NCBI RefSeq assembly: GCF_041154485.1
Contig: NZ_AP028669.1
Span: 5,311,001 to 5,375,000, forward strand
Length of the DNA: 64,000 bases
Direction of reading: 5' to 3'
Origin: Variovorax sp. V93
GTDB taxonomy: Bacteria; Pseudomonadota; Gammaproteobacteria; Burkholderiales; Burkholderiaceae_C
The notes below the pieces were generated by a model, which was not told where the DNA came from, did not search any database, and saw only the letters and a list, made by a program, of their open reading frames with translations. Shown piece by piece: positions 2,588 through 31,363 of this stretch (positions are counted from its first letter, which is position 1; every line of letters starts with the position of its first letter). A program made the position numbers and the translations under genes.

Positions 2588-3079
2588 ATGAGCTCCCTCA
2601 CCCATTTCGATGCCCAGGGCCAGGCCCACATGGTCGACGTTGCGGCCAAGCCCGCCACCCATCGCGTGGCCGTGGCCACGGGCCGCATCGAGATGCAGCC
2701 CGCCACGCTGGCGCTGATCGAATCGGGTACCGCCAAGAAGGGCGACGTGCTTGGCATCGCCCGCATCGCGGGCATCCAGGCCGCCAAGAAGACCAGCGAC
2801 CTGATCCCGCTGTGCCACCCGCTCGCGCTCACGCGCGTGGCGCTCGCGTTTGCGCTGGCCGAAAAAGGCAATGCGCCGCAGGTGGTGTGCACCGCCACCG
2901 TCGAGACCGTGGGGCCGACCGGCGTCGAGATGGAAGCCCTCACCGCCGTGCAGGTGGCGCTGCTCACCATCTACGACATGTGCAAGGCGGTGGACCGCGG
3001 CATGCGGATCACCGACGTGCACGTGCTCGAAAAGCATGGCGGCAAGTCGGGCAGCTACCTGGCAGCCCCCCAAGGCTAG
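2588..3079 (+). CDS. moaC: Cyclic pyranopterin monophosphate synthase MoaC
   Basis: 163 residues, the usual family length. MoaC converts the MoaA product to cyclic pyranopterin monophosphate, the first stable molybdopterin precursor. Family signatures are present: LCHPL (75-79), TGVEMEAL (111-118) and YDMCKA (129-134), whose Asp130 and Lys133 match the catalytic pair known from E. coli. No other molybdenum-cofactor gene is nearby. Its TAG stop shares the four bases CTAG with the stop of the convergent O-OTase gene, so the two transcripts must overlap. Confidence 0.95.
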
Positions 3080-4806
3080 GGCGCCAGCCCGTCCACGGGC
3101 AGCCCCTTCAGCCAGCGCTCGTACTCTTCTGGAAATGCGATACGGAAGCGCTCCGCCTGGTCGCGGGCTTCCTCGCCCTGCCCCATCAGCTCGGCGCTTT
3201 CGATCAGCTTGACGATCACGCGCGGCTCGGGCGAGAAATGCAGCGTGCGCTCGGCCAGCGAGTGCATCGCGGCCGCATTGGCCGGCGTGACGGCCGTGAG
3301 CGTCAGTTCGGCAAAGTCGACCTGCCTGGCGAAGAGCCATGATCTTTTGGCCTTGGCGAGCGTGCCGTCTTCATAGGCCGGCAGGCGTTCGTCGCGCGGC
3401 AGGTAGATCTGGCTGATGCGGATGTAGTCCCAGGCGGCATAGCCGACCGCCGCCATCAGCGCCGCGGCCGCGACGGAAGACAGGATCGGCGGCTCGAGCC
3501 ACCGGGCCTTGAAGCGCTGCCGCAGCGATGAAGCCGTTGCGGCGCCACGCGCCGGCCACAGCATGCCCAGGCACAGCCCGAACACCAGCTGGAACGGCCC
3601 GTACCAGAGCGGATATTCGAGCAGGCTGTGCAGCGCGATCGCGCCCAGCATGCCCCAGGCCATGAGCCGCACCGAGTCGCGCTCGCGCCAGGGCCTGGCC
3701 CCCATCACCATCCAGAGAAAACCGCCGCAGACCAGCACCGACACCGGAATGCCCATTTCCACCGCCAGGTGCAGCGGCAGGTTGTGCGCGTTGTCCAGGA
3801 TCTCCGGGAAGCGCGGTCCGTCGTACAGCGTGCTGTAGTGCGCGAAGGCCAGCTCGCCCCAGCCCCAGCCCGCGAGCGGATGCGCGGCAATCAGCGAGAG
3901 CACGTTGCGCCAGAGGATCATCCGCGTGTGGTCGCCCGGCGCGCCCCCCTGCAGCCGCTGCATCATGCCCTCGACCTCGCCCGCCGCAAGCTGCGGCAGC
4001 ACCCAGGCGATGGCGAAATAGACCGGGATCATTGCCAGCAGCACCAGCGGCGGCGGCAGGCTGAAGGGCGTGCCAGCGCGCTCGGCCGGTACGCCGCGGC
4101 GCTCCCGCCGCGCGATGAAGGCGGCAACGCCCACGATCGACAGCAGCTGGAGCAGCCCGGTGCGCGAGGTGGACGCCGCCGCGGCCACCAGCAGCAGCAG
4201 CGCCGCCGCCACCAGCCAGCGCCGAATGCGCGCCGAGGGCTGCGCCGCATGGATCCAGAGCGCCGCCACCAGCGCCATGCTGATCAGCGTGGCGAACTGG
4301 TTGCGCTGGCGCAGGTTGCCATACGCCTGGCCCAGCGCGGGCGTGGTGGTCCACGGCACCAGCGGCTCGGCCAGGCCGTAGTACTGGAGCAGGCCGAGCA
4401 CCGCGCTGACGAGGCCGGCCACGAGCACGCCCACCGCCAGCGCCCCCGATACGGCCGGCCTGCCCCGTGCCATGCCTGCCCCCACACAGGCCGCGGCCGC
4501 CATGGCGGCCAGCGCCATCACCGCCGGCAGCCATGCGGCGGCCGTGGCATGCGGGGACGAAAAAAGCACGACTGCTGCCGCCCCGGCGCCGAGCCATACC
4601 CAGATGGCGCGCGCCGGCACGGCGACAGGAACGGCCAGAAGCATCGCCGCGAGGCAGACCCAGGTGGCCAGCAGCTGCCAGGCCTGGACCGAGGGACCGG
4701 CGACGAGGGGGCAGAGAAACGGGAACGCGACCAGCCCGGCACGCAGGGCGCCGACGGCTTTAGGCGAGAGAGCGGCGGCCTCGGCAGGCGCTGCGCGGGA
4801 AGTCAT
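3076..4806 (-). CDS. PglL-type O-oligosaccharyltransferase (Wzy_C family), paralogue 1
   Basis: 576-residue inner-membrane protein with about 11-12 hydrophobic segments and a soluble C-terminal region after about residue 455. Wzy_C/O-antigen-ligase features: a QRNQ motif at 167-170, an S/T-x-R loop near 213, and [12 protein letters not shown] with the conserved His at 341 in the large periplasmic loop, equivalent to the essential His of Neisseria PglL. Such enzymes move lipid-linked glycan to Ser/Thr of pilins in the periplasm. It is divergent from pilE, 157 bases away, which supports a pilin substrate. A WaaL-like ligase role cannot be excluded by sequence alone. Confidence 0.82.
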
Positions 4807-4963
4807 TCCGCCGATTGTGCCGACCGGCCGGGCCGACGAATGGCGGCGGGTGGGAGACGAGCGGCTTTGCGGGAAAACACATTTAGAGACATTCTTAGAC
4901 AACTATCTACAACTGTTGCCAGCCCCCTGGCGGAAGGCCCGGAATCGGTCCGAAAGGTGTCTC

Positions 4964-5443
4964 TTGAAGAAACAAGCAAGCTATCTGCGTCGCGCTGTCC
5001 AGGCACGGGGCGGTTCGTCCGGCTTCACGCTGATCGAAGTGATGATCGTGGTGGCGATCATCGGCATCCTGGCCTCGATCGCGATTCCAGCCTACAACGA
5101 CTATGTTCGCCGCGGCCAGTTGCCGGAGGCCTTCAATACGCTGTCCGCCTACCGGGCAACGATGGAGCAGTACTACCAGGACAACCGCAACTACGGTCCC
5201 TCCGGAACGAATTGCGCCGCCAATGCCGCGGCCGCATTCACGCCTTCCGGCACCAAGTACTTCAGCTACACCTGTACGACTTCAAACAGCCAGCAGAACT
5301 ATGTCATCACCGCCACCGGAAGCGCGGGGCAAGCGGTCGGACACACCTACACCCTCAACCACAATGGCGACCGCGCGACCACCCAGTTTAAAGGCAGCAC
5401 CGTAACCCAATCGTGCTGGCTTACAAGCAGCAGCGCTTGCTGA
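4964..5443 (+). CDS. pilE: Type IV (minor) pilin PilE
   Basis: 159-residue prepilin. A 20-residue leader ends in Gly20, followed by [20 protein letters not shown] with the Glu at mature position 5; the N-terminal helix continues to about residue 75. A TTG start at 4964 is chosen because GAAAGG sits 6 bases upstream and no in-frame ATG precedes the leader; the coding frame extends further upstream but has no ribosome site. It has four Cys in the globular part (two near the middle, two in the last 15 residues). First gene of the minor-pilin operon; fimT begins 7 bases downstream. Confidence 0.88.
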   Translation: MKKQASYLRRAVQARGGSSGFTLIEVMIVVAIIGILASIAIPAYNDYVRRGQLPEAFNTLSAYRATMEQYYQDNRNYGPSGTNCAANAAAAFTPSGTKYFSYTCTTSNSQQNYVITATGSAGQAVGHTYTLNHNGDRATTQFKGSTVTQSCWLTSSSAC

Positions 5444-5450
5444 TCGAACC

Positions 5451-6062
5451 ATGTCGATCACCATGCGGCAACGCGGCTTCACACTGGTCGAACTGGTCGT
5501 CACCATTGCGGTGTTGGCGCTGATCCTCTTCGCCGTCATGCCAAGCATCGGCACTTGGCTGGAAAACACCCGCATTCGCAACGTTGCCGATTCGCTGCAA
5601 AACGGGCTCCAACTGGCGCGCGGCGAGGCTGTGCGGCGCAATCAGAATGTGTCGCTCTGGCTGGTGTCGCTCAATGACCCGGCCGTGCTGAGCGACGACT
5701 GCTCTCTTTCAGGCGCCAGCGGCGCCTGGATCGTGAGCGTGAACTCCCCGATTGGGCATTGTTCCGACGCCCCATCGACGATCAGCTCTCCCATGATCGT
5801 TACGGGGCGCCCCGCAGGAGACAGCGGCGGAAGAGTCACGGTGGCTGCGGTTCAAGCCGTTGACGGATCGACCGAAGGTACGACCGTCACCTTCAATGGT
5901 TTTGGGCGCGTTGCCAACAGCGATGCCATTGGCCAGATCGACGTCATCGGAACCGCCACAGGCACCCGTGCATTGCGCATCGTCGTCTCGCCCTCGGGCT
6001 CGGTGCGCATGTGCGAGCCGGCCATTGTCGACAGCACGGCAAAGGATCCCCGCAAATGCTGA
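5451..6062 (+). CDS. fimT: Minor pseudopilin FimT/FimU (GspH family)
   Basis: 203 residues. Prepilin cleavage motif RG|FTLVELVVTIAVLAL with Gly9 and Glu14 (mature +5). GspH-like globular domain with the usual QLARGEAVRRNQNVSL helix-strand junction around residues 50-66. An internal Met at residue 5 could also start translation. It belongs to the priming complex of minor pilins that starts pilus assembly and carries PilY1. Its last codons overlap the pilV start by 7 bases. Confidence 0.88.
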   Translation: MSITMRQRGFTLVELVVTIAVLALILFAVMPSIGTWLENTRIRNVADSLQNGLQLARGEAVRRNQNVSLWLVSLNDPAVLSDDCSLSGASGAWIVSVNSPIGHCSDAPSTISSPMIVTGRPAGDSGGRVTVAAVQAVDGSTEGTTVTFNGFGRVANSDAIGQIDVIGTATGTRALRIVVSPSGSVRMCEPAIVDSTAKDPRKC

Positions 6063-6523
6063 ACCGAGTGAATCGCGTGCGCGCGCCCGGCCAACTCAAC
6101 CAGGTGCGGCGCAAGCCTCCCCAAACCTCGCATTCGCGAGGCATCGCCTTGATTGAAGTGCTCGTAGCGCTGCTGATCTTCATGCTGGGCGTGCTCGGGC
6201 TGGTCGGCCTGCAGGCCTCGATGACGCGCGCACAGACTGACTCCAAGGTGCGCGCCGATGCCGCCTATCTCGCCAGCGAACTGAATGGGCGCATGTGGTC
6301 CGACCTCACCAATCTGGCGAGCTACAACGGCACCGGTTGCGCCTCTCAAGCGCGATGCAGCGAATGGCAAAGCAAGGTCAGCAGCAGCCTGCCTGGAGGG
6401 ACCGGTGCAGTCACTGTCAACGCAAGCTCCGGCGACGTTGCCGTCACCATCAGCTGGACGATGCCGAATGGTGAAACGCACCAGTACGTCACGCACACAA
6501 CCGTCTCGAAGGCTGCGAACTGA
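6056..6523 (+). CDS. pilV: Type IV pilus minor pilin PilV
   Basis: 155 residues with an unusually long, basic leader (29 residues) before the RG|IALIEVLVALLIF cleavage and helix motif; Glu34 is mature +5. The ALIEVLVALLI signature and short globular domain are typical of PilV. The ATG lies inside the 3' end of fimT, implying translational coupling. Its TGA is followed 1 base later by the pilW ATG. Confidence 0.88.
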   Translation: MLNRVNRVRAPGQLNQVRRKPPQTSHSRGIALIEVLVALLIFMLGVLGLVGLQASMTRAQTDSKVRADAAYLASELNGRMWSDLTNLASYNGTGCASQARCSEWQSKVSSSLPGGTGAVTVNASSGDVAVTISWTMPNGETHQYVTHTTVSKAAN

Positions 6524-6524
6524 G

Positions 6525-7664
6525 ATGCGCACCGCTCAACCCATCTTCTCCAAGCATTCTTCCCAGCGTGGCTTCACCCTGGTCGAACTCATGGTCGGCC
6601 TTGTGCTGGGTCTGCTCACGGTGCTTGTCATCAGCCAGGTTCTCGCGCTCGCCGAAGGCAAGAAGCGTTCGATCACCATGGGCAGCGATGCGCAAGTCAA
6701 TGGCGCGTTGTCGCTCTTCACACTTCAACGCGATGTGCAAATGGCGGGCTACGGTGCAGCCGCCAGCCCAGATGCACTCGGCTGCTCGGTGACGGGCAAG
6801 TACGACGCCGGTGGCGCGTCGTTCGTCTTTCCGTTGGTCCCGGTCGTCATTACCAATGGCACCAGCACCGATACCAACGCTCCAGACACGATCACTGTCT
6901 TGCAAGGGCGGACCACGAACTTTTCGGCGCCCATGGTCCTCAAGGAGGATCACCCACAGTCCAGCAACTATTTCGAGGTGACGTCCTCGTTCGGAGCAGT
7001 GGTCGGCAACATGATGATTGCCGTCCCAAAAATCCAGGGCAGCGGCCTGGGCTGCACGTTGTTCAGCGTGACCAACGACACGACATCCCCTGCCACCACA
7101 TTGGGACCTACTCGTGTACCTCATGCCGCCACCGCTGCAAGCAAGTGGAACCAGAACAGCATATTTCCGACGAGCGGATACGCGTCGGGCAGCTATCTGC
7201 TGAACATGGGGTCGATGGTCTATCGCAGCTATTCGATCAGCAGCGCCAATAGCCTGCAGATGGTCGAGCGCTCTCCCGTGAATGGGGTGGTGACCGACCC
7301 GCCGCTGGAACTCTATCCGCAGATCGTCAATGTCCAGGCCATGTACGGCAAGGACACCAATGGCGATGGCGTTGTCGACACCTACGACAACGTTACGCCG
7401 ACCACCAACGCCGGTTGGCTGCAGGTGCTCGCGATCCGCATCGCGGTAGTGGCGCGCAGCAACCAGTACGAAAAGGAGAACGTCACAGCGAGCGCACCCC
7501 AGTGGGACGTAGGCGCCAACGCCACCATCACTGGTACCACGACTTGCCATGGTGCGAGCAAGTGCATTGCGCTGAAGGTGAGCCACGTCCCGGAATGGCA
7601 GCACTACCGCTTCAAGGTCTACGACACGATCGTGCCGCTGCGCAACGTCCTCTGGAATTCCTGA
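6525..7664 (+). CDS. pilW: Type IV pilus minor pilin PilW
   Basis: 379 residues. Leader of 16, then RG|FTLVELMVGLVLGLLTVLVI with Glu21 at mature +5. The large globular domain includes the PilW-characteristic LFTLQRDVQMAGYG segment (residues about 65-78), found just after the N-terminal helix in this family. The length is within the PilW range (about 270-400). Tightly packed between pilV and pilX in the operon. Confidence 0.9.
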   Translation: MRTAQPIFSKHSSQRGFTLVELMVGLVLGLLTVLVISQVLALAEGKKRSITMGSDAQVNGALSLFTLQRDVQMAGYGAAASPDALGCSVTGKYDAGGASFVFPLVPVVITNGTSTDTNAPDTITVLQGRTTNFSAPMVLKEDHPQSSNYFEVTSSFGAVVGNMMIAVPKIQGSGLGCTLFSVTNDTTSPATTLGPTRVPHAATAASKWNQNSIFPTSGYASGSYLLNMGSMVYRSYSISSANSLQMVERSPVNGVVTDPPLELYPQIVNVQAMYGKDTNGDGVVDTYDNVTPTTNAGWLQVLAIRIAVVARSNQYEKENVTASAPQWDVGANATITGTTTCHGASKCIALKVSHVPEWQHYRFKVYDTIVPLRNVLWNS

Positions 7665-7673
7665 GCCATCGCC

Positions 7674-8372
7674 ATGCAAATCAGACCATTGAATCTCTTC
7701 CAACGCCGGCGTGCTCAACGCGGTGTCTCGCTGCTCTTCGCCCTTCTGACGCTGGTCGCGCTTTTGCTTGCAACATTGGCACTGGTGCGCTCGGTCGACA
7801 CCAGCACGCTGGTGCTGGGCAACATGGGTTTCAAGCAGGATGCCACCTCTGCCGCGGACCAAGCCGCGCGCAAAGCCATCGACTGGTTGACCGCCAACAG
7901 CGCCAGCCTGAACACCGACGCCGCGTCGAGCGGCTACTACGCAAGCACGCAGGAGCTTGCCGCCGACGGCGTGACGGCAAAACCGCCGATCGATGTAACC
8001 GGCCGGCAACTCGCCGCCAGCAACAACCGCCAATTGATCGACTGGGACGGCAACACCTGCCAGTCCGCCACCACGGGCACATACAACGGGTGCACCGTTA
8101 CGACTGCGGATGCCGGCACCATCAACAACAACAACGCCCGCTTCGTCATCTTCAGGCTGTGCTCCAAGGCGGGCAATTACCTCACTGACGCAAGCATCAG
8201 CTGCGCCAAGCCGATTTCGAGTAGCGGTGCCAGCGTGACCAAGAAGGGCGAAATGAATTACGCCGAACAGCCTTTTGCCGGTGGCGCTTCCGGACCGTAC
8301 TACCGCATCGTGGTGCGCGTGCTGGGTGCGCGCAACACAGCCAGCTTCACCGAAACCATTGTGCACTTCTGA
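7674..8372 (+). CDS. pilX: Pilus assembly protein PilX
   Basis: 232 residues with an N-terminal QRG|VSLLFALLTLVALLLATLAL transmembrane helix. Position +5 after the Gly is Phe, not Glu, so this pseudopilin lacks the usual Glu5 that pairs with the neighbouring subunit's N-terminus. That pattern resembles GspK-type tip pseudopilins. Identified as PilX by the PilX_N-like start, the size and the position between pilW and pilY1. It carries four Cys. Confidence 0.85.
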   Translation: MQIRPLNLFQRRRAQRGVSLLFALLTLVALLLATLALVRSVDTSTLVLGNMGFKQDATSAADQAARKAIDWLTANSASLNTDAASSGYYASTQELAADGVTAKPPIDVTGRQLAASNNRQLIDWDGNTCQSATTGTYNGCTVTTADAGTINNNNARFVIFRLCSKAGNYLTDASISCAKPISSSGASVTKKGEMNYAEQPFAGGASGPYYRIVVRVLGARNTASFTETIVHF

Positions 8373-8414
8373 TGAGGAAGTGCCGCTCCTGCGCCAGACA
8401 GAGAACCCAACACC

Positions 8415-11400
8415 ATGAAAAATAGATTCACTCTTGCCATCGGCCTGAAGCCCCAAAGGCAGGCCATCTGCTGTGCGGTGATGATCTGTGCGTTGCTGCT
8501 GGGATCATTCGCCCCCATCGTCGATGCAGCATCCACAGACCTCTCGAACCAACCCCTGGCTACGCTGCCCGCGGTTCAAGCCAAGCCAAACCTGTTGTTC
8601 GTTCTGGACGACTCGGGAAGTATGGACAACGACTACATGCCGGACCAAATGTCCAGCGGCAAGTATGGGTACCGCTCCGCGCAATGCAACGGCGTGGGTT
8701 ATGACCCTACCATGACCTATTCGCCACCGCTCAACGCGGATGGGACGTCTTATCCCAATGCGATTTTTACAGCAGCGCGTAGCGATGGCTATGACGCTTC
8801 GAGTTCAACGGTCAATCTCAACAATCGGTTCTATTACACCTACAGCGGCACTCAGCCCAAGATGGGTTGGGCATACACCAGCAGCGGAGCCATTCGGAAC
8901 ACTTTCTACAACGAGTGCATGACTTCGACCAACTCGTGGACCAACCTTTTTCAGCAGGTCACGGTCACCAGCACTTCCGCCGAGGCTCAAAACTACGCCA
9001 ATTGGTATTCGTACTACCGCAAGCGCTACTTGTTGATGCGCACCGCCATGGGCCGTGCAATCTCGGCGCTGGACTCAAGCTATCGCGTTGGCTTCAGCAC
9101 AATCAGCGACGGAACTGCGGTGGATGGCAACAACTACTTTCGCGATGTCAAGGATTTCGATCTCGCGCAAAAAACCAACTTCTACAGCAGTCTTTACAGC
9201 GCCTCGCCGACCGGCTGGACGCCGTTGCGCTCGGCCCTGTCCAAGGCGGGACGCTATTTTGCGAACAAGGCTCCTGACCAGAGCTACGACCCCGTTCAGT
9301 ACTCTTGCCAGCGCAACTATGCGCTCCTCTCGACCGACGGCTACTGGAACATGAGCAAAGGCCTGAAGCTCGACGGTACCACCGAGATCGGACAGCAAGA
9401 CGGTACTGAAGCCCGCCCGATGCGGGATGACAGCCAGGTCATCATCACCACCGTGACACCCTACACCGTGGCGCTGACCAGGAACGCGCTTTCCACCCAG
9501 ACGCAGACCAGAACCTGGACCCGCACCTCCACCACTGTTTCTTCAACACCAGTGGCGAGCGGACAGAACAAGGGGAAGTACGCCGTCACCAAGGTGACTA
9601 ATCAGCGCTACACGGAGACACAGTCTCGAACCTATACGACGCCTCAATCGGCCACGAGATCCTATTCCGAAACGGTAGTGACAACCGACGGTGTCGAGAC
9701 GTCCAGAAGTACCAGCACGTCCACCACTTCGGCCTGGGTCAACACCGGGACACCCACCGAGTCGTTTACGGGCAATGGTCCTCCAACCGACAGCAGCAGC
9801 TTCACGAGCGGAAACACAAACACGACCTACCAGGCGGCCAAGGGCGATGGTGTGACGGTCAATTCAGACTCTGCTGGATCGTGGAGTTCCTGGTCTACGG
9901 CAACCACTTCCAACACAACACCTGTGGCGCAAACGCCTGTTGCGGGCACGCCAACCCAAACACCGTCCACCTCGGGGGGCACCGGTAACACGCTGGCCGA
10001 CGTGGCCCAGTACTACTTCGCGACGGACTTGCGGACCAGCGCCCTCGGCAATTGCACTTCGAGCAGCTCCGGCAGCAGCCAGGACGTCTGCAGCAACATC
10101 GTGCGCCCAGTGGGGAGCGACAAGGCCGCATGGCAGCACATGAATTCGTTCACGATTGGTCTTGGCGTGAGCGGCACTCTGCCTTACGACAAGAACTACC
10201 TGACCCAGACCGCTGGTTCCTATGTGGACCTGACCAGTGGTGCATTGGACTGGCCTGTGCCCGAAGGTGCGGATCTGGATGACGGCCAGGGAGGCAACGC
10301 AACCAACGTCGACGACCTGTGGCACGCAGCCATTAATGGCCGCGGCCAGTATTACTCGGCGCTCAATGCCAGTGCGCTGAGCGAAGCCATCAACGGCGTC
10401 GTCACGTCGGTGCAGCAGGTCTCGGGCTCGGGTGCCACGGCATCGACCAGTTCGCTGCAATTGGTGGCCGGCGACAACAACCTGGTCTTCCGGGCGAGCT
10501 ACACCACGCAGTTGTGGACCGGCGATCTGCAGGCCTTTGCAATCAACGGTTCGACGGGCGTCATCGCGAATACCGCCACGTGGTCCGCGCAGGCAAAACT
10601 CGATGCAACGGCCGCTTCGGACAGAAGAATCTATTTCAGCAACGGCTCGGCTCTACAGAGCTTCGAATACAACAATCTGAGTTCCGCGCAAAAGGGCTAC
10701 TTCGACAATCTCTGCGGCAAGACCCTCATTGCCGCGCAATGCTCGCAGCTTTCAGACAGCAACAAGGCGCTGGCCAACAACGGCACGAACCTCGTCAACT
10801 ACCTGCGCGGCGTGCGCACCTACGAAACGGCCAGCGTCGACGCATCCAACAACAGCATTGCCGCGCTCTATCGCAAGCGTGAACATGTGCTGGGCGACAT
10901 CATCAACGGTGCGCCGGTCTATGTTGGGAAGCCCCCCTTCCGCTATGCCGACGCCGGCTACGCCGACTTCGTTACAGCAAAGTCAACCCGCACGCCCGTG
11001 GTGTACGTGGGCTCGAACGACGGCATGCTGCACGCTTTCTCGGCTGCGACCGGCAGCACTGGTGGCAACGAGCTCTGGGCCTACGTTCCAGGTACCGTCA
11101 TGCCCAACCTCTACAAGATGGCGGACACGAGCTACGGATCAAGGCACCAATACTCCGTGGACGGAGCGCCCGTCATGGGCGACATCAAAGTTGGCACCAC
11201 CTGGAAGACCATTGTTGTCGGTGGCCTGAACAGCGGCGGCCGCGGCTACTACGCACTGGACATCACCGACCCCAATGATCCCAAGGCCCTCTGGGAGTTC
11301 ACCGATGCCAACCTGGGCTTCAGTTTCGGCAACCCGGTGATCGCCAAGCGCGGCGACGGCACCTGGATCGTTGCCTTTGCCTCGGGCTACAACAACACCA

Positions 11401-12305
11401 GTGGCGACGGCAAGGGCCACCTCTACGTTCTGAATGCAAACACCGGCGCCCTGCTGCTGGACATTGCCACCAGCGACGGCAGCAGCGACGACCCGAGCGG
11501 CCTCGCAAAGATCAACGCCTGGATCGAAAGCTCCAGCGACAACACAGCCAAGCGCTTCTACGGCGGCGACCAGCAAGGCAACCTCTGGCGCTTCGACATC
11601 GACGGTCTCCTGCTACCCAACCGGGCTGCGATGCGACTCGCCAAGTTCCAGGTCAACGACACGACGCCGCAGCCCATCACCACAAAGCCGGAAACCGTGG
11701 AGATCTCAGGCAAGCCCGTGGTCGTGGTTGCAACAGGCCGGTATCTCGGCGCATCCGACATCGCGGATTCGACGCAGCAAAGCATCTATGCAGTGAAAGA
11801 CACGTTGACCGCCACCGGATGGAGCGACGTGCGCGCCGATACCACGAACTTCGTCAGGCAAACGTTCACGTTGAATGGGCCCGTGGCGACCGCCACTGCG
11901 GCCTCGGTGTCCAACACGTCGGTCGACTGGGCGACCAAGGGCGGTTGGTGGATCGACCTGCCGCATTCGCGTGAACGTGTGAATACCAACCTGGGCCTGC
12001 AATTCAGTACCTTGTCGGTTGCCACCGCCATCCCGAACGGCGACGCCTGCGCATCGGGCGGCACGGCCTGGCGCTACTACCTCAATGTGGCCAATGGCGG
12101 CGTCGTGACGACTAACCCGGCCGGTGGACTCTTCAGCACCGACGGGCTGATCATGGGCATGACCTGGGTGCAGGACAGCAATGGCAATGCCCGCATCATT
12201 TATCAGAAGAGCAATGGCGACAACGTGATCGAGACGCCGCCGGTGGCGACATCGTCTGGCTCCGGTAGCGTGCATAGAACCTCCTGGCGCGAACTGGTGG
12301 ACTGA
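8415..12305 (+). CDS. pilY1: Type IV pilus tip-associated adhesin/biogenesis factor PilY1
   Basis: 1296 residues. Signal peptide about 1-38. A von Willebrand A-like domain starts with the MIDAS motif DDSGSM at 65-70. A strikingly Thr/Ser-rich segment covers about 343-525. The C-terminal PilC/PilY1 beta-propeller is about 800-1270, with hallmarks such as VVYVGSNDGMLHAFSA and GGDQQGNLWRFDI. PilY1 sits at the pilus tip, promotes pilus extension and adhesion, and in Pseudomonas feeds surface sensing into cAMP and c-di-GMP signalling. At the place where many homologues have an acidic DxDxDG calcium loop just before YxGDxxGNLWRFD, this one reads ESSSDNTAKRF, so that calcium site may be absent. Confidence 0.93.
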   Translation: MKNRFTLAIGLKPQRQAICCAVMICALLLGSFAPIVDAASTDLSNQPLATLPAVQAKPNLLFVLDDSGSMDNDYMPDQMSSGKYGYRSAQCNGVGYDPTMTYSPPLNADGTSYPNAIFTAARSDGYDASSSTVNLNNRFYYTYSGTQPKMGWAYTSSGAIRNTFYNECMTSTNSWTNLFQQVTVTSTSAEAQNYANWYSYYRKRYLLMRTAMGRAISALDSSYRVGFSTISDGTAVDGNNYFRDVKDFDLAQKTNFYSSLYSASPTGWTPLRSALSKAGRYFANKAPDQSYDPVQYSCQRNYALLSTDGYWNMSKGLKLDGTTEIGQQDGTEARPMRDDSQVIITTVTPYTVALTRNALSTQTQTRTWTRTSTTVSSTPVASGQNKGKYAVTKVTNQRYTETQSRTYTTPQSATRSYSETVVTTDGVETSRSTSTSTTSAWVNTGTPTESFTGNGPPTDSSSFTSGNTNTTYQAAKGDGVTVNSDSAGSWSSWSTATTSNTTPVAQTPVAGTPTQTPSTSGGTGNTLADVAQYYFATDLRTSALGNCTSSSSGSSQDVCSNIVRPVGSDKAAWQHMNSFTIGLGVSGTLPYDKNYLTQTAGSYVDLTSGALDWPVPEGADLDDGQGGNATNVDDLWHAAINGRGQYYSALNASALSEAINGVVTSVQQVSGSGATASTSSLQLVAGDNNLVFRASYTTQLWTGDLQAFAINGSTGVIANTATWSAQAKLDATAASDRRIYFSNGSALQSFEYNNLSSAQKGYFDNLCGKTLIAAQCSQLSDSNKALANNGTNLVNYLRGVRTYETASVDASNNSIAALYRKREHVLGDIINGAPVYVGKPPFRYADAGYADFVTAKSTRTPVVYVGSNDGMLHAFSAATGSTGGNELWAYVPGTVMPNLYKMADTSYGSRHQYSVDGAPVMGDIKVGTTWKTIVVGGLNSGGRGYYALDITDPNDPKALWEFTDANLGFSFGNPVIAKRGDGTWIVAFASGYNNTSGDGKGHLYVLNANTGALLLDIATSDGSSDDPSGLAKINAWIESSSDNTAKRFYGGDQQGNLWRFDIDGLLLPNRAAMRLAKFQVNDTTPQPITTKPETVEISGKPVVVVATGRYLGASDIADSTQQSIYAVKDTLTATGWSDVRADTTNFVRQTFTLNGPVATATAASVSNTSVDWATKGGWWIDLPHSRERVNTNLGLQFSTLSVATAIPNGDACASGGTAWRYYLNVANGGVVTTNPAGGLFSTDGLIMGMTWVQDSNGNARIIYQKSNGDNVIETPPVATSSGSGSVHRTSWRELVD

Positions 12306-12311
12306 ACTTCG

Positions 12312-13687: not shown

Positions 13688-13696
13688 CAACTTCGC

Positions 13697-14860: not shown

Positions 14861-14861
14861 G

Positions 14862-17901: not shown

Positions 17902-17910
17902 AGACGTCAC

Positions 17911-21659: not shown

Positions 21660-21681
21660 CGGGTGGTTTCTCTTGTAAGGC

Positions 21682-23133
21682 TCATTGGCCGAACGCCTTG
21701 CGTGCGATCGAATCCGAGCTGCGCCAGTCGAGTACCAAGTAGGCCACCCCACCAAGCACGAATGCCGCCGCTGCCAGCGGCAGTGATGGCGCACCCCAGA
21801 TCAGCAATGTCACGAGTGGCAGCGCGGCGAACACGGCGTGTCGTACGGTTGACCACACACCGGCCCAGGGGAAGCTCCAGTGCAGCACCTTGCGAACAAG
21901 TCGCGTGGACACGCCTACCATCACGAGGTTCGATACCGCCGCAGCACAAGCCGCTCCGACCACACCCCAATGGCGTGCGAGCCAAAGATTCAATGCAAGA
22001 TTGATGACAGTAGCCAGGACTGCCAATCCGAGCACCTGCCGGCTGCGCCCATCGAGGAGCAGTGCGTAAAGCAGAATCTGGTAACTACCCGCGGCGCTGA
22101 CCGATAGCCCGAGCAGCGCGAATACCAGCGGCGGCGCGGCATAGGCGCCAGTGGTCAACAACGGCAGCACCCAATGGCCTCCCACGGCCAGCAGCACAGC
22201 GACCGGCACGCACAAGAACAAGAACACTCGGAGCGCCAGCGTCATCAGCCGCGCAGCTTTGTCGAGGTGAGGCACCTGCCAATGGCGCGCCAGCACCGGG
22301 AACAAGGTGAAGCCAAGCACACTGTAGAACGCGGCCGGGATGGTGCATAGCGACACCGCGGCGGCATACACGGCCACTCCGTCGAGTCCCAGCCATTGCA
22401 CCAGCACGAAGCGGTCCAAAAAACCGTTCAAGGACGTGAACAACGATAGCACGACCAGTGGCGCGGAAAAGGCCAGCAACTCTCGCAGACGCGGTGGTGA
22501 GACAGGCTCCGAAGGAACAGGCGTACGCCACAACACCCACAGCGTCGCAGCCAATACCGCCAGTGCCAGGGCCAATTGCGCCATAGCGTAGTGGCCAAAC
22601 CAAGCGAGCAACGGTACGGGGACGCCGCTTACGAGCATGAGCACTACGCCGTAGCGCACCACGCTACGCAGCACCAGTGCGGAGGCCACCGCGCCGATGC
22701 GCCCGGCCGCCCGCAACCAGGCCACGCTGAACTCCGTGGTGGCGTCCGCTGCCAGCAACACCAGCAAAATGGGTATCAGGGTTTCATGGCCAGCTTCGCC
22801 GTAGATGAACGCGGCCAGTGGCAGCGGGAGCGTTGACGCCAGCGCAACGCACAGAGCAAGCAGCAGAAGCGCGACCGCGCCGAGTTGGGCAAAGAAGCGC
22901 CCACGAACCCGCGCGCCCGCGGCCGTGGAAAAGTAGCGCACCACGGCCGTTGACGAACCGAACAACACGAGCGGGACCAGCAGACTAGCCGCAACCGCTG
23001 TCTGAGTCCAGGCACCATAGTCGGCCGGGACAATGGCGCGCGTGAGCAGCGGCAACAGGAAGAAGCCCAACAGTCGGTCGATCAGCACGGCCGAGCCATA
23101 GACCGCCGTGTCGACGCGCAGCGTCGAAGCCAT
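21682..23133 (-). CDS. Oligosaccharide flippase (Wzx/MATE-like polysaccharide exporter)
   Basis: 483 residues with about 12-14 hydrophobic helices spread through the whole length, starting VDTAVYGSAVLIDRLLGFFLLPLLTR, the classic beginning of Polysacc_synt (Wzx) proteins. Wzx flips undecaprenyl-linked oligosaccharide across the inner membrane. The PglL-type enzyme at 29089-30828 could then use it. It divides the wbp sugar genes from the glycosyltransferase genes. The 61 bases between it and wbpE contain nothing obvious. Confidence 0.87.
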   Translation of the reverse strand: MASTLRVDTAVYGSAVLIDRLLGFFLLPLLTRAIVPADYGAWTQTAVAASLLVPLVLFGSSTAVVRYFSTAAGARVRGRFFAQLGAVALLLLALCVALASTLPLPLAAFIYGEAGHETLIPILLVLLAADATTEFSVAWLRAAGRIGAVASALVLRSVVRYGVVLMLVSGVPVPLLAWFGHYAMAQLALALAVLAATLWVLWRTPVPSEPVSPPRLRELLAFSAPLVVLSLFTSLNGFLDRFVLVQWLGLDGVAVYAAAVSLCTIPAAFYSVLGFTLFPVLARHWQVPHLDKAARLMTLALRVFLFLCVPVAVLLAVGGHWVLPLLTTGAYAAPPLVFALLGLSVSAAGSYQILLYALLLDGRSRQVLGLAVLATVINLALNLWLARHWGVVGAACAAAVSNLVMVGVSTRLVRKVLHWSFPWAGVWSTVRHAVFAALPLVTLLIWGAPSLPLAAAAFVLGGVAYLVLDWRSSDSIARKAFGQ

Positions 23134-23194
23134 GTCAGTCAGAGGAGCCGAAATCGGCAGGAGTGGGCATGCAGGCAGAGCGATCGAAACTGGC

Positions 23195-24297
23195 TCATTG
23201 TCGAACGGCTTCGATCAAGGCTCGCACCACGCGGTCGTGATCAGCATCCTTCAAATCCGCGCTGAACGGCAAGCTCATTGCGCGCTCGCCAGCGCGGACG
23301 CTGTTAGGACAGGCATCATCGTGGCCGTAGCGGGCGTACGCCGGCTGACGGTGGAGTGGCTTCGGATAATGCACAGCAGTCGGAATACCTTGTTGATGCA
23401 ATACCGCCTGCACTGCCGCTCGATCATTGACGAACACGGTGAACTGACCCCACACACAATCGCGATCGGGCCGCACCGCCAGCAGGCCCACCCTTGAGCC
23501 GGCCAGCAGCGTACGGTAGCGGGTGCCGAGTTCGCTGCGGCGCTGTAGTTCCCATTCGAAGCGCTCCAGCTTGGCAAGCACCACCGCGCACTGCAGCGTA
23601 TCCATGCGACCACCGACACCAACTCGTGTGTGTGTGTAGCGTGCGCTCTGCCCATGTATACGAAGCTCCCTGCATGCCTGTGCCAGCGCGTCGTCATTGG
23701 TGAATACTGCGCCACCGTCCCCGTAGCATCCCAAAGGCTTGCTAGGGAAAAAGCTTGTGCACCCCAAGGTACTGAGGTTGCAACTCTTGCGGCCCTGGTA
23801 AGTAGCGCCAAAACTCTGCGCTGCATCCTCGATGACCGCCAAGCCGTGGCGCGCGGCGATCACATTGATCTCATTCATGTCGGCGCATTGGCCGTACAAG
23901 CTGACGGGCATGATCGCACGCGTACGACTGGTCACCTTCGCTTCAACTAGCGCCGCATCGATGTTGCAGGTGTCGGGTTCGATGTCCACGAAAACTGGTA
24001 CGCCGCCCAACAGCACGATCATCTCGGCAGTTGCGGCAAAGGTGAATGGCGTGGTGATGACTTCGTCGCCGGGTTTCAGGTCAATCGCCATCAGGGCAAT
24101 CAACAAGGCCTCGGTACCACTGGCAACCGTGATGCAATGCTTCGAGCCAGCGTACGCCGCAAGCCTCCCCTCCAATTCCTTCACCTCCGGACCCATGATG
24201 TACTGACCGTGATCTAGTACACGTTGCATACGCTCCGCGATCTGTCCCTTCAGCGCTACGTACTGGGACTTGAGGTCGACGAACTCGAGCTTTTCGC

Positions 24298-24301
<4 letters not shown>
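23195..24301 (-). CDS. wbpE: UDP-2-acetamido-2-deoxy-3-oxo-glucuronate aminotransferase WbpE
   Basis: 368 residues. PLP aminotransferase of the DegT fold, opening [18 protein letters not shown]. The PLP Lys is in [15 protein letters not shown] (about 185), the position known for WbpE Lys185. It installs the 3-amino group on UDP-3-keto-GlcNAcA. The ATG overlaps the wbpD stop as ATGA. The order wbpA-B-D-E and the matching lengths support the specific name over a generic aminotransferase. Confidence 0.9.
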
Positions 24302-27120
<2,819 letters not shown>

Positions 27121-27123
27121 GTC

Positions 27124-29037
27124 CTATTCAATCGATGGTGTTTTCGGCGTGTAGCCAGGTACCAGCAAGCGCAAAACATCCTTCATTGCCGCGATGTTGC
27201 CACTGCGCGCGGCACTTAGCAGTGTCCGCAAATGAACTTTGAGGTCAGGCCAAGCCATATAGTCTTCTCTGGCGCGAATGATGCGGGGGTGGCTAGTCGG
27301 CAGCGGATTCTCCCCGATGAGCAGTTCTTCGAACAGTTTTTCGCCGGGTCGCAGCCCGCTGTAACCAATGTCGATGTCTCCAGTGGGGTGCGCCTCGCTC
27401 CGGACTGTCAGCCCGGCGAGGGCGACCATTCGTTTTGCAAGATCGAGGATCTTCACCGGCTCGCCCATATCCAAAACGAACAGGTCACCGCTATCCGCCA
27501 TGGCTCCTGCGTGCAGTACGAGTTGGGCGGCTTCCGGAATCGTCATGAAATAACGCGTCATTTCGGGATGGGTGACCGTGAGTGGCCTCCTTTCCGCGAT
27601 CTGCGAGCGGAAGAGCGGCACCACGCTGCCACTCGATCCCAGCACGTTCCCGAATCGAACCATTGAAAAGCAAGTCGTCGAGATTGTCGCTCCGCCCTCA
27701 CCCACACAGACCTCTTCGAATGCCGTGTCGCCGCAACTTGCCAGCGCCTGCAGCACGAGTTCTGCAACCCGCTTCGTCGCACCCATGATGTTGGTCGGGC
27801 GAACGGCCTTGTCGGTGGAAACCAAGACAAAATGCTCCACCCCTGCAGCCAGCGCTGCGCGGGCTACATTCAGCGTGCCGAAGACGTTGTTGAGTACGCC
27901 TTCGCCTGGGTTGGCTTCGACCATCGGCACGTGCTTGTAGGCTGCAGCGTGATAGACCGACGCGGGCTTGTACATGACGCATATTTCGGAGATGCGCTCG
28001 AAGTTGCACACGCTGGCGAGCAGCGGGACGGTGCGCACCGGGAGCCCGTTGCGGCCTATCAAAAGTTCCAGTTCCTGATGAATCCGATACAGGGCGAATT
28101 CGCTGTGATCGATCAGCAGGAGCTGGCTCGGCCCCTGCTGCACAATCTGGCGACACAATTCGCTGCCGATGCTGCCGCCGGCACCAGTGACCAGCACCAC
28201 CTTGTGCGCGAGATTGCGCGCCAGCAACTCAAGGTCTGGCGCAACCGGCGACCGACCTAACAAGTCTTCGATATCCAAATCGCGAAAATCCTGCACCGTA
28301 ACGCGACCGCTTGCCAAATCGGCCAGACCCGGAATCGTACGGATGCGCGCTGGTAACGCAGACAGATGCTTGATGATCTGGTTGCGCCTTTCTCGGCTAG
28401 CACTGGGCAATGCCAGCAAGATGTCGGTTACGGCGAACTTGCTGACAAAGGCCGGGACGGCGGCTGGCAACATAACGGGGACCCGGTTGATGGTGCGACC
28501 CGCCTTGCGCTCATCATCGTCGATGAAACCGAGCAGTGTGTACTGCTGAGCGCTGGCTAGGGCGGCCGCCGTTTGTGCGCCAGCGCTTCCCGCTCCGTAA
28601 ATCAACAAGCGGCTCGAGGTGCGGGTGCCGGTAGCCAGCCAGTGCCATGCCAATGTCCGGCTTCCGGCGACCAGCAGCAGCAGAATGAGCGGCTGCAGAA
28701 TGCTGAGGCTGCGCGGTACGCCTTCACGCAGGTAGAGCACAACTACCACTGGAAGAAAAAGTAGCCCGTATGTCGCAACGGCTTTGCTTGTTGCGAGGAT
28801 CGCGGCCAAACCGGTGTATCGAAAGATTGCGCGGTACAAACCGAACTTCACAAAGACCGGAATGGCCAGCAAAGGTGAGATGGCGTACACGGTCCATTCC
28901 ATCCTCACAGGCTGATGCCAAGTGTCCAATCGAAGAGTGAATGCAAGCCACGTTGCAAGTAGCGCCAGAAAAAGGTCCAAGACAAGCACAATGAGGCGCT
29001 TGTGTGAACGAGGCCACCCGAGGACGATTTCTTGCAC
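27124..29037 (-). CDS. wbpM: Membrane-bound UDP-GlcNAc 4,6-dehydratase/epimerase WbpM
   Basis: 637 residues. Four N-terminal membrane helices (about 15-130), a CoA-binding-like middle region (145-260), then a catalytic SDR domain with GAGGSIGSE at 285-293 and STDKAVRPTNIMGATKR. WbpM/PglF/CapD enzymes make UDP-2-acetamido-2,6-dideoxy-4-keto-hexose, the start of bacillosamine- or FucNAc-type sugars. The start is a GTG at 29037, because the next Met would remove the first membrane helix. It lies between pglL paralogue 2 and wbpA. Confidence 0.9.
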   Translation of the reverse strand: MQEIVLGWPRSHKRLIVLVLDLFLALLATWLAFTLRLDTWHQPVRMEWTVYAISPLLAIPVFVKFGLYRAIFRYTGLAAILATSKAVATYGLLFLPVVVVLYLREGVPRSLSILQPLILLLLVAGSRTLAWHWLATGTRTSSRLLIYGAGSAGAQTAAALASAQQYTLLGFIDDDERKAGRTINRVPVMLPAAVPAFVSKFAVTDILLALPSASRERRNQIIKHLSALPARIRTIPGLADLASGRVTVQDFRDLDIEDLLGRSPVAPDLELLARNLAHKVVLVTGAGGSIGSELCRQIVQQGPSQLLLIDHSEFALYRIHQELELLIGRNGLPVRTVPLLASVCNFERISEICVMYKPASVYHAAAYKHVPMVEANPGEGVLNNVFGTLNVARAALAAGVEHFVLVSTDKAVRPTNIMGATKRVAELVLQALASCGDTAFEEVCVGEGGATISTTCFSMVRFGNVLGSSGSVVPLFRSQIAERRPLTVTHPEMTRYFMTIPEAAQLVLHAGAMADSGDLFVLDMGEPVKILDLAKRMVALAGLTVRSEAHPTGDIDIGYSGLRPGEKLFEELLIGENPLPTSHPRIIRAREDYMAWPDLKVHLRTLLSAARSGNIAAMKDVLRLLVPGYTPKTPSIE

Positions 29038-29088
29038 TTGTTTTGATGAGTTGAGATTACATCGAGTTTTGACCGAGCAAATCGATCG

Positions 29089-30828
29089 CTAGAGACCGAG
29101 AGCTTGGCCCGATGTGACTCCGGCGGGCCAAAGGATGCTCGCCAATGCAGGGTGCAACTTCTGTGCTTGTTCCCATCTCAATGGCCCAGCTTCGCATTGA
29201 TCCCTTGGGACAATGCGACACATCTTTACCAGCCACTGGCTCGCCTCCACCGGCTGGTTGTTGAGGCCCAACAGAACCGCCAGCGTCATGAAACTACGGG
29301 GGCTCGGCCATATGAGGGTGACCTCTCGCGCCCACTGGAGCTCAGCCATGGAGACCCCAGCAACAGGTTCATACTTCATGAAGCGTTGAATTTCGCGCAG
29401 ATCTGTCAACAGCAAAACTTCAGGCGGGTCAGCCACGCGGCCGTTCTGAAACTGCGCTTTCTCCAATTGCAAAGTGTTGTAGGCTTCCTCCACTCGAAAG
29501 TAGTCACGCACGACCAACCCCAAAAGAGTCGCTCCCAAGCACCAAGCTCCGAGCCATAGCCACCGCTTGGCGAACCGCGAGGACCGTGCCAAAGGCCAAA
29601 TCTTCAAGTTTGCATTCAAGGCCCCCATCGCCAGACCGGTCGGCAACAAAAAATAGCCATAGTGCAGCGGCAATTCCAGCATTGCGTGAACTCCGACCAC
29701 CAACACCAAAAGGAGATACAGGGCCTCCTGCGGCATACACACCCGACGCCAAGCCGTTGCAATCCATGCCAAAACACAGGCCACCAAGAGCGCGCCCAGA
29801 GGGAACCCAGCCCAAAGAATGAAATCGAGGAACAGATTGTGCGACTGAAAAAACGGATGATGGAGTGCCAGATATTGCTCCGCCACTGTCGCTTGGGCCG
29901 GCACCACTTGGTTCCAGCCATAACCGGTCAAAGGACGTTGCCAAGCCGCATGCCACAGCATTCGCCACAACTCTGGCCTCATTTCTTGGCCAAGCCGCTG
30001 CACCATCGATCCCGGCGCTTCGAGCATCATGAATCGCCGAAGCGGTCCCAGTACTAGCAACGTCAAAACATAGAAGACAGCCAAGCCGGTGACGTATCGA
30101 GGTACGCTTTTTGCGCCCCAAAGTCGACCCCACCACCACGAGGCCAACACCAGAACCACCAACCCTAGCACCGCACTGCGTGACTGCGTCAACGCCAGAC
30201 CGACCAATAACCACGCTGAGGCGATTAAAGCCGCGATGCGCCCGAGCTGCCGTCGCCAGACACCCCAGCCACACGCCACCAGACCCCATAGCAGCAACGT
30301 GGCGAGCTGATTGGCTTGCGCCATGTTCGCGTATGGGCGCGAGCCATCCGAGCCAACCACCCAGATATCGAGAGTGCCGTCATTCCCCGGATCGAGCCAT
30401 TGTTGAAGCTGCATGGCCACCGAAACAATTGAGGCGATGCCTATCGCCAAAAATAGGATATCGCCCATCCAGACCGGCTTCCAATCCTGCCACTGCTGCC
30501 CGACCACGAGTGCCAGCAAAAAACCCACTATGTACGCGCTCGCGATCCAGGCTTGACCAGCAAACGGTATCAGCCCAAAAGCATATTGTGCAAAAGGCAA
30601 CGGAAGCAGGAGTGCGACCACCAACACTAGGCCCTGGCACGCCACCACTTGCTGCGCCCGCACGATGACCACCAAGCCAATTACCGCCAATATCGTTGCA
30701 GCCCAGGCATCAGAATGAAACGAAGTCCATGGCTTTGAGTGATTGGGCAGCAGCCAGGCAAGCGAGAGCAAGGCGGAGGCCATAACCACCCAGACGGGAG
30801 CAAGCGAGAGTCGCGAAAGTCGATTCAT
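29089..30828 (-). CDS. PglL-type O-oligosaccharyltransferase (Wzy_C family), paralogue 2
   Basis: 579 residues, about 12 hydrophobic helices up to about residue 440, then a soluble tail. Shares the paralogue-1 layout: QANQLA at 171-176, TQSRS at 214-218, and QSHNLFLDFILWAG with the conserved His at 330. The C-terminal LRRFMKYEP-like LREIQRFMKYEPVAG belongs to the Wzy_C_2 region seen in pilin-specific enzymes. It lies immediately downstream of pilA, the usual place for a TfpO/PglL-type pilin glycosyltransferase, and heads the glycan cluster. The ATG at 30828 is used; a TTG precedes it by one codon. Confidence 0.85.
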   Translation of the reverse strand: MNRLSRLSLAPVWVVMASALLSLAWLLPNHSKPWTSFHSDAWAATILAVIGLVVIVRAQQVVACQGLVLVVALLLPLPFAQYAFGLIPFAGQAWIASAYIVGFLLALVVGQQWQDWKPVWMGDILFLAIGIASIVSVAMQLQQWLDPGNDGTLDIWVVGSDGSRPYANMAQANQLATLLLWGLVACGWGVWRRQLGRIAALIASAWLLVGLALTQSRSAVLGLVVLVLASWWWGRLWGAKSVPRYVTGLAVFYVLTLLVLGPLRRFMMLEAPGSMVQRLGQEMRPELWRMLWHAAWQRPLTGYGWNQVVPAQATVAEQYLALHHPFFQSHNLFLDFILWAGFPLGALLVACVLAWIATAWRRVCMPQEALYLLLVLVVGVHAMLELPLHYGYFLLPTGLAMGALNANLKIWPLARSSRFAKRWLWLGAWCLGATLLGLVVRDYFRVEEAYNTLQLEKAQFQNGRVADPPEVLLLTDLREIQRFMKYEPVAGVSMAELQWAREVTLIWPSPRSFMTLAVLLGLNNQPVEASQWLVKMCRIVPRDQCEAGPLRWEQAQKLHPALASILWPAGVTSGQALGL

Positions 30829-30861
30829 CAACGGATTTGGATAGACCGTAGCGTCAAAATA

Positions 30862-30887
30862 AAAAAAGCCCCTGCCGGGGCTTTTTT
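30862..30887 (-). terminator. Bidirectional-looking terminator after pilA
   Basis: A GCCCC stem (30868-30872) pairs with GGGGC (30877-30881) around a TGCC loop, extended by A6/T6 flanks that give a U-tract on either strand. It begins 15 bases past the pilA stop on the minus strand. It probably uncouples strong pilA expression from the downstream O-OTase and wbp genes, with some readthrough. Confidence 0.85.
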
Positions 30888-30901
30888 GTCAGTTCAAACA
30901 C

Positions 30902-31363
30902 TTAGATGCGGCATTCAGTCGGAACAAACTTGTTCTTTGCAGCACTGGAAACTGCGCACGTCCACTTGATCGGGCCACCCGGAAGAACACCACTTTGCAA
31001 AGCAGAGCCATTAGCGGTCGGGGTCAACGTGAGGGTCAAAGCACCTGCAGCCGACGTTGTCACCAACGTGATGACGCCGGTCGCAGCAGCCGTACTCATG
31101 GTGCTAAGGTTCTTCAGGCCCGATCCCGATGCAATGGCGTCGACACCAGAATCAAGGGAGGCACCATTCGCGGCATTCTCACCAATGGTCGCCTTCGCGC
31201 CAGAAGCAATGACAATCGCCTCGGTCACACGCGCGCGCACCGTGTAATCCTGATACGCCGGCAGAGCCACAGCAGCCAAGATACCGATGATCGCCACAAC
31301 GATCATCAATTCGATAAGGGTGAAACCCTTTTGCACGTTGCGTGCGATAGAACGACGGTTCAT
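30902..31363 (-). CDS. pilA: Major type IV pilin PilA
   Basis: 153 residues. Short leader [13 protein letters not shown], cleavage before Phe14, then [20 protein letters not shown] with Glu18 (mature +5). The alpha1 helix continues through [11 protein letters not shown]. The globular domain is Ser/Thr/Ala-rich, and a C-terminal disulfide loop is likely between Cys136 and Cys151. The size and the own promoter/terminator fit a major pilin. The Ser/Thr-rich surface and the neighbouring PglL-type gene make it a likely O-glycosylation target. Confidence 0.93.

Follow-up and report, generated by a model that had tools for sequence, protein, structure and literature searches.

Two PglL-type oligosaccharyltransferases at a Variovorax type IV pilus locus, one probably belonging to an exchangeable pilA cassette and the other a candidate older general enzyme

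The stretch of DNA analyzed here, 64,000 nucleotides of Variovorax sp. V93 (contig NZ_AP028669.1, positions 5,311,001 to 5,375,000; hereafter the window), carries type IV pilin genes together with genes for two predicted PglL-type O-oligosaccharyltransferases (OTases), PglL1 and PglL2. We lean toward the reading that PglL2 is the OTase of an exchangeable pilA cassette, placing a short, cluster-made glycan onto the major pilin PilA, and that PglL1 is an older core enzyme of general function. The data show family membership, the clade split, gene linkage, and coinheritance with pilA; from them we infer enzyme activity, acceptors, sites, and glycan structure as follows. The Wzx-dependent gene cluster beside PglL2 would build a short glycan on undecaprenyl diphosphate and then flip it, and PglL2 would move it in the periplasm to an internal serine or threonine of PilA prior to pilus assembly. 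Judged from the sequence, S56, S59, S66, S68, S74, and S77 of mature PilA are candidate sites in a loop. PglL1 would be a largely vertically inherited PglL, kept in most sampled Variovorax, that probably acts as a general enzyme on several proteins of the periplasm, minor pilins perhaps among them; its glycan may have another origin.

Coinheritance of PglL2 with pilA

PglL2 begins 73 bp downstream of pilA and so adjoins its pilin, as is expected of a PglS-type gene. Among 61 Variovorax genomes, scored by PF11846 matches that may miss diverged copies, PglL1-type genes were present in 46 (45 in one piece and one, in G023, in two), PglL2-type genes in 8, and both types in seven. A wbpM gene directly followed PglL2 in seven of the eight genomes with PglL2 (all but G062) and was found in the fetched locus of none of the 46 others, a count in which 8 of the 54 genomes lie outside the pilA set, some of them fetched on the PglL1 side only, without the pilA side. 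The G023 PglL1 (L022:1995-3704) gave Wzy_C_2 matches in two overlapping frames and may be frameshifted.

The distribution of PglL2 follows the pilin allele and not the chromosomal backbone, as represented by the flanking CHASE2 cyclase gene. On the PilA tree, the PglL2 label (8 rows) required four changes (shuffled mean, 7.5; 0 of 500 shuffles as low), whereas on the CHASE2 tree (7 rows) it required seven (shuffled mean, 6.7; 500 of 500 as low); all trees in this work (the CHASE2 and PilA trees, the 136-row family tree, and its extension with Acinetobacter and Pseudomonas) were quick searches. When the modifier found in the slot directly 3' of pilA was sorted by hand into classes, excluding genomes without a clear modifier (22 or 23 kept of 46 pilA loci), pairs sharing a slot type had a PilA identity of 0.39 versus 0.27 for other pairs (0 of 5,000 shuffles; 22 genomes), with CHASE2 identity at 0.692 versus 0.692 (2,322 of 5,000; 22 genomes). 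Removal of the PglL2 class left the PilA difference in place (0.46 versus 0.29; 6 of 5,000; 16 genomes).

Individual genomes illustrate the pattern. G011, the sister of the window on the CHASE2 tree, shares its MBL protein (98% identity), M48 peptidase (95%), and PglL1 (91%), but its PilA is only 48% identical and its slot holds a TfpX/TfpZ accessory gene (TfpZ family, 211 bits; cutoff, 200). Conversely, G013 is close to the window in PilA (83%), PglL2 (74%), and WbpA (93%) but has only 62% identity in PglL1 and 44% in PilE. In addition, a terminator-like hairpin, recognized as a sequence pattern, lies between pilA and the OTase gene in 28 of 30 loci of PglL2's clade (clade A, described below). 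Position and coinheritance thus support a tie between PglL2 and PilA. An earlier note on this DNA had paired each enzyme with a pilin gene, and both placements are confirmed; coinheritance with a pilin was seen for PglL2 and PilA, and PglL1 tracks the chromosomal backbone.

Variable genes in the slot behind pilA

Besides the PglL2 class, the slot contains several unrelated kinds of genes in Variovorax. In G005 it holds a TfpM-like gene (101 bits, below the cutoff of 600) followed by PglL2. Sulfatase-family (phosphoethanolamine-transferase-like) enzymes occupy it in G016, G017, G068, and G081, preceded in G017 and G068 by a methyltransferase-like open reading frame (ORF); the G016 enzyme is CptA-like (208 bits, below the cutoff of 404). 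ICMT/PEMT-type methyltransferases, 93% identical to each other and accompanied by almost identical PilA proteins, were found in G075 and G084, and a PAP2 plus spermidine-synthase protein was found in G027 and G071. A large membrane protein family fills the slot in G023, G024, G036, and, distantly, G066; slot proteins of 640 to 720 aa gave a weak PIG-U match (L024) and a weak TPR match (L023), those of L029, L034, L038, and L045 gave no Pfam matches, and it is our impression that these proteins have a transferase (GT-C) character.

At least six types can be counted: OTases of the Wzy_C type that bring their own glycan genes, TfpZ, phosphoethanolamine-transferase-like enzymes, ICMT-like methyltransferases, PAP2/spermidine-synthase-like proteins, and large transferase-like membrane proteins. 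We tentatively suggest, giving the idea slightly less than an even chance, that the pilA 3' slot is a recombination hot spot where each pilin allele is exchanged together with a dedicated modifier or accessory gene in a single cassette, drawing on these six or more unrelated kinds of protein and presumably under phage selection, while the resident PglL1 stays as a general enzyme. If so, an environmental genus other than Pseudomonas would hold a natural library of pilin-plus-modifier pairs, in which the matching of modification to pilin allele could be tested. Such a library would also supply candidates for the disguise of phage receptors, as well as pilin-linked OTases that come with their glycan pathways.

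Three further observations concern these slots. In G005, the TfpM-like Wzy_C gene and the PglL2-type gene stand in tandem behind pilA (L010:4716-7877, L011:11399-13111) and, with PglL1, bring the number of candidate OTases at this pilus locus to three. The PAP2/spermidine-synthase proteins (G071, L062:10060-13788; G027, L039:4766-8548) are membrane proteins of 1,242 to 1,260 aa directly behind pilA, 59% identical to each other; both parts were matched in the G071 copy. Near a contig start, G002 (L035:2602-6903) has four pilA-like genes arranged as two pairs of opposite orientation, and this genome gave no PF11846 match.

Distribution of the enzymes across the family

In a tree of 136 rows, from which rows shorter than 440 aa were excluded, PglL2 fell in clade A (35 rows; Shimodaira-Hasegawa-like approximate likelihood ratio test [SH-aLRT] support, 99) and PglL1 in clade C (62 rows; SH-aLRT, 83); clade B (36 rows; SH-aLRT, 100) has members in genera other than Variovorax only. 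A recent duplication giving rise to PglL1 and PglL2 was considered and rejected, since the clades part deeply and each contains many genera. The deep split and the occurrence of both clades in other genera indicate, as judged from sequence, that the window's pair is an old combination, in which the tandem of relatives has apparently been split by a glycan cluster and a minor-pilin operon.

A same-strand pilin gene was located no more than 300 bp upstream in 30 of 35 clade A rows, 7 of 36 clade B rows, and 3 of 62 clade C rows. Three of the five clade A rows without a pilin lie at contig ends; the others are G005, with the TfpM-like gene in between, and L086, with a 792-aa frame, where we guess that the pilin was missed through an overlong called frame. 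A second scan of named genomes, which shares some genomes with the first set, found the gene behind a pilin in 68 of 80 clade A-like loci, and 7 of the 12 misses were cut by contig ends. This neighborhood is maintained across Beta- and Gammaproteobacteria. When the tree was extended, Acinetobacter and Pseudomonas enzymes fell within PglL2's clade, including both pilin-linked and second Acinetobacter copies and thus both Acinetobacter enzyme kinds (this tree did not contain A. baylyi PglS).

The earlier note regarded a dual arrangement as unusual. That view needs correction, as the pair recurs across the family: a second OTase lies no more than 1.2 kb downstream in 34 of 80 PglL2-like loci, and Polaromonas sp. 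JS666 provides a published precedent (PMC3643930). In Polaromonas loci L137 and L151, the clade A gene likewise has another OTase gene after it. Two or more PF11846 match rows were found in 49 of 150 genomes, an upper figure given that one gene can yield two rows. The family regions were picked mainly for two PF11846 matches, with another set picked for one weak match, and tandem frequencies in them are not estimates. Beyond the clade C gene, small pilin-like frames occur on the opposite strand in some loci with a clade A-clade C tandem. One contig labeled as an Akkermansia metagenome-assembled genome (L171) encodes a Comamonadaceae-like PglL pair, probably owing to a binning error.

Family assignment of the two enzymes

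Both genes are where the earlier note placed them (Table 1), encoding proteins of 576 aa (PglL1, from an ATG) and 579 aa (PglL2). All Pfam matches exceeded curated cutoffs (PglL1, Wzy_C_2 at 163 bits, Wzy_C at 72.1, and PglL_A at 41.7; PglL2, 73.0, 59.4, and 37.8, respectively). The 11 residues reported as conserved in PglL (Q178, N180, R224, R298, P313, G316, G318, H349, H400, E404, and P406; PMC3643930) are all present in both proteins when aligned to Neisseria meningitidis PglL, the PglL1 counterparts being Q167, N169, R215, R295, P310, G313, G315, H341, H393, E397, and P399. The histidines singled out in the earlier note, H341 of PglL1 and H330 of PglL2, align with H349; its "S/T-x-R" motif is better described as the conserved arginine of an S-R pair (R215 and R217, corresponding to R224). 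The two proteins share 106 identical residues over 459 aligned positions.

A profile match to the oligosaccharyltransferase PDB 9rmk was obtained (E = 9.9e-34). With the predicted PglL2 fold, Foldseek alone returned nothing below E = 1e-3, its best match being WaaL 7tpg at 2.4e-3, and 9rmk was not among the matches listed in structure searches with this fold. Domains and key residues, together with the predicted fold in the case of PglL2, support the PglL type that the earlier note had proposed for both proteins, and transfer of a lipid-linked glycan to serine or threonine of periplasmic proteins is predicted for them on that basis.

The label TfpO, also used in that note, was dropped. TfpO is described as having no PglL_A and no Wzy_C_2 (PMC12645811), domains that both enzymes possess. 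PilA ends in ECRI and PilE in SSSAC, so that PilA has no C-terminal serine of the TfpO kind (TfpO/PilO identity was rejected accordingly) and neither pilin ends in the serine or threonine acceptor of TfpM. Identity with WaaL, the lipopolysaccharide O-antigen ligase that the note had allowed for one of the genes, was likewise rejected on the PglL-only domains and residues. A separate WaaL-like gene lies elsewhere in the genome: the sole further Wzy_C match, a 419-aa protein (L004:10174-11433), has Wzy_C alone, lacks Q178, H400, E404, and P406, and keeps the other three of the seven PglL-only residues.

PglL1 and the minor-pilin operon

PglL1 stands head to head with pilE in the window and in many other Variovorax loci, and many genus loci have the minor-pilin operon directly facing pilA. 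The neighboring pilin gene noted earlier as "pilE" is a divergent pilin gene but proves to be the first gene of a minor-pilin/PilY1 operon. Within Variovorax, PglL1 follows the CHASE2 backbone (r = 0.52 to 0.74) and not PilA (partial r = 0.09; 155 of 1,000 permutations), and beyond the backbone it shows slight covariation with PilY1 (partial r = 0.16; 46 of 1,000) and PilW (0.19; 25 of 1,000). PilY1 and PilW form one block (r = 0.97) that correlates little with CHASE2 (0.13 to 0.29 for PilY1; 0.12 to 0.22 for PilW), and PilY1 identity to the window ranges from about 26 to 92% across genus loci L008 to L067, reflecting very different operon types. For instance, G030 has 82% identity to the window in PglL1 and 31% in PilY1, and G004 has 79% and 89%, respectively. 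Since PglL1 tracks the backbone while the PilY1/PilW block moves largely independently, the case for dedication of PglL1 to minor pilins and PilY1 is weakened. Of the substrate split proposed in the earlier note, the PglL2-PilA half has support from position and coinheritance; the other half, PglL1 for minor pilins and PilY1, is weak.

Weighing the alternatives

Several observations weigh against the proposed division into a PilA-linked PglL2 and a general PglL1. G028 carries PglL2 without a PglL1 match, and G062 carries PglL2 without the glycan cluster. A PglL1-type gene directly follows pilA in G022 and G069, and follows further pilins in G083. Clade A is not purely pilin linked, as it includes Acinetobacter second enzymes without a pilin within 2.5 kb, and a pilin lies within 2.5 kb in 48 of 62 clade C rows. 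Furthermore, where the partner is a clade C enzyme (n = 17, most of the loci being from other genera of the family), the PglL2-type enzyme covaried with PilA given the partner (partial r = 0.37; 0 of 2,000, and 4 of 2,000 in an earlier run), and the partner covaried as strongly given the clade A enzyme (0.38; 2 of 2,000), so that PglL2 does not stand out in this partial-correlation test. Where the partner belongs to clade B (n = 8), covariation was seen for the clade A enzyme alone (0.43; 55 of 2,000; partner, -0.05). The three genes are usually neighbors in those loci, and linkage can thus explain the covariation of both clades with PilA. Adjacent genes travel together, and covariation shows cotransfer, not substrate specificity.

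These points bear most directly on the possibility that both enzymes are general PglLs with overlapping targets, each accepting PilA and other proteins, with PglL2 riding with pilA by adjacency only. Linkage alone could then yield the covariation, the Acinetobacter enzymes away from pilins would fit, and PglL is described as having no defined sequon (PMC12645811). Because the clade C partner covaries equally with PilA, we raised our estimate of this redundancy and slightly lowered that of the cassette reading. We nonetheless consider redundancy rather unlikely, given that PglL2 was found in only 8 of 61 genomes and is accompanied by glycan genes in 7 of the 8, which would be needless for a redundant general enzyme, and that clade A retains its pilin neighborhood across two classes. 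A division by pilus part, with PglL2 serving PilA and PglL1 specialized for the adjoining minor pilins and PilY1, would draw on the head-to-head gene order and the small partial correlations described above; it appears improbable in view of the largely independent exchange of the PilY1/PilW block, as in G030 and G004, and of the many family loci that place the clade C enzyme behind PglL2, as a tandem, instead. That one enzyme, most likely PglL2, is the O-antigen ligase or the Wzy polymerase of the cluster at 13 to 29 kb would agree with its place at the end of a Wzx-type cluster and with its predicted WaaL fold. We regard this as very improbable, as PglL2 has PglL_A, Wzy_C_2, and all seven PglL-only residues, four of which the 419-aa Wzy_C protein lacks.

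Comparison with known systems

Acinetobacter combines a pilin-specific OTase (PglS with ComP, or TfpO with PilA) with a general PglL (PMC12645811, PMC6385209, PMC3643930). The window is similar in having two OTases per genome, one directly behind a pilin and with the PglL domain set, as in PglS; it differs in that its other enzyme comes from a separate deep clade (C), 24 kb separate the two genes, and the pilin-linked one has a glycan cluster next to it. PglS is characterized by a single acceptor and by its acceptance of Glc at the reducing end. Polaromonas sp. JS666 has two PglL homologues beside pilins (PMC3643930, Table 1), whose consecutive accession numbers we read as neighboring genes. 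Pilin-PglL-PglL tandems are found in Polaromonas and other Comamonadaceae; in the window, the minor-pilin operon and glycan cluster interrupt the tandem.

In Pseudomonas aeruginosa, cassettes with tfpO, tfpW, or tfpX/Y/Z have an accessory gene, linked to the pilin allele, immediately 3' of pilA and after a terminator (PMC11841053). Variovorax resembles this in the accessory gene 3' of pilA behind a hairpin with the sequence pattern of a Rho-independent terminator, in the presence of TfpZ itself in G011, and in a slot gene type that goes with the pilin allele and not with strain ancestry. Its slot differs in containing PglL, TfpM-like, phosphoethanolamine-transferase-like, ICMT-like, PAP2/spermidine-synthase-like, and large membrane proteins. 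Both enzymes are like N. meningitidis PglL and PDB 9rmk in domain set and in all 11 residues, the published numbering of which also fits 9rmk, but they differ by a deep branch in the tree, and the neisserial pglL is described as not beside pilE (PMC3643930). Two PglLs beside pilins (Polaromonas) and dual OTases (Acinetobacter) are already known; a narrow literature search found nothing on Variovorax pilin glycosylation, on such Variovorax cassettes, or on their exchange.

Locus organization and the glycan cluster

The gene order runs M48 peptidase, moaC, and PglL1, then the divergent pilE-fimT-pilV-pilW-pilX-pilY1 genes and a TonB-like gene, followed on the minus strand by a 16-kb glycan cluster, PglL2, pilA, the MBL protein, and the CHASE2 cyclase (Table 1). 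Searching the window with Rfam (gathering threshold) and for tRNAs gave no matches.

Table 1. Features of the pilus and glycosylation locus in the window, with predicted functions
Feature	Position	Strand	Basis
PglL1, clade C, head to head with minor-pilin operon	3076..4806	-	Pfam and PglL residues
pilE-like minor pilin, TTG start at about 4964	4964..5443	+	ORF; Pfam N_methyl, ComP_DUS
fimT/GspH-type minor pilin	5451..6062	+	Pfam GspH, N_methyl
pilV-like minor pilin	6011..6523	+	N_methyl slightly below cutoff; position
pilW minor pilin	6513..7664	+	Pfam PilW
pilX-like gene	7674..8372	+	Position; Pfam gave no match
pilY1	8415..12305	+	Pfam T4P_PilY1
PglC-type initiating sugar-1-phosphate transferase	13091..13690	-	Pfam Bac_transf, 192.9 bits
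DegT aminotransferase (putatively PglE-like)	13697..14968	-	Pfam DegT_DnrJ_EryC1
Three glycosyltransferases (15587-16813, 17911-19194, 19642-21303) and three methyltransferases	within 14862..21794	-	Pfam
WbpI-type 2-epimerase	16810-17910	-	NCBIfam wecB-type epimerase, 308.5 bits
Wzx-type flippase	21682..23133	-	Pfam Polysacc_synt, 69.8 bits
WbpE/WbpD/WbpB/WbpA-like sugar-acid genes	23195..27120	-	Pfam and NCBIfam
WbpM/PglF-like UDP-GlcNAc 4,6-dehydratase, directly after PglL2	27124..29037	-	Pfam Polysacc_synt_2, 382.6 bits
PglL2, clade A, candidate OTase of pilA cassette	29089..30828	-	Pfam and PglL residues
Intrinsic-terminator-like hairpin between pilA and pglL2	30862..30887	-	Sequence pattern
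pilA, major type IV pilin	30902..31363	-	Pfam Pilin, N_methyl

Pfam families were assigned to all 15 cluster ORFs taken as genes, two of which are DegT aminotransferases, and no Wzy-type polymerase was found among them by Pfam, so a short glycan unit is likely; one initiating transferase and three glycosyltransferases likely make it about four sugars long. The sugar-acid genes match aminotransferase, hexapeptide acetyltransferase, Gfo/Idh/MocA oxidoreductase, and UDP-sugar dehydrogenase families. Their Wbp names presume the P. aeruginosa wbpA-B-E-D-I pathway, and by analogy with that pathway a diacetamido-uronic acid would be the expected product. An acetamido sugar probably starts the glycan; such a sugar is typically needed by PglL enzymes (PMC12645811).

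As a possible glycan source for PglL1, Bac_transf loci were sought in the genome, yielding four, one of them in the window, with no source assigned to PglL1 from them. L128, the one of the three outside loci that was scanned with Pfam, contains Bac_transf, an epimerase, a weak MatE match, DAHP_synth_1, SIS/CBS, and hexapeptide proteins. Elsewhere, a second PF00114 match (G000:C1:5137730-5138026, L005) lies inside a 425-codon frame, and similar frames, mostly of 418 to 456 codons, recur genus-wide.

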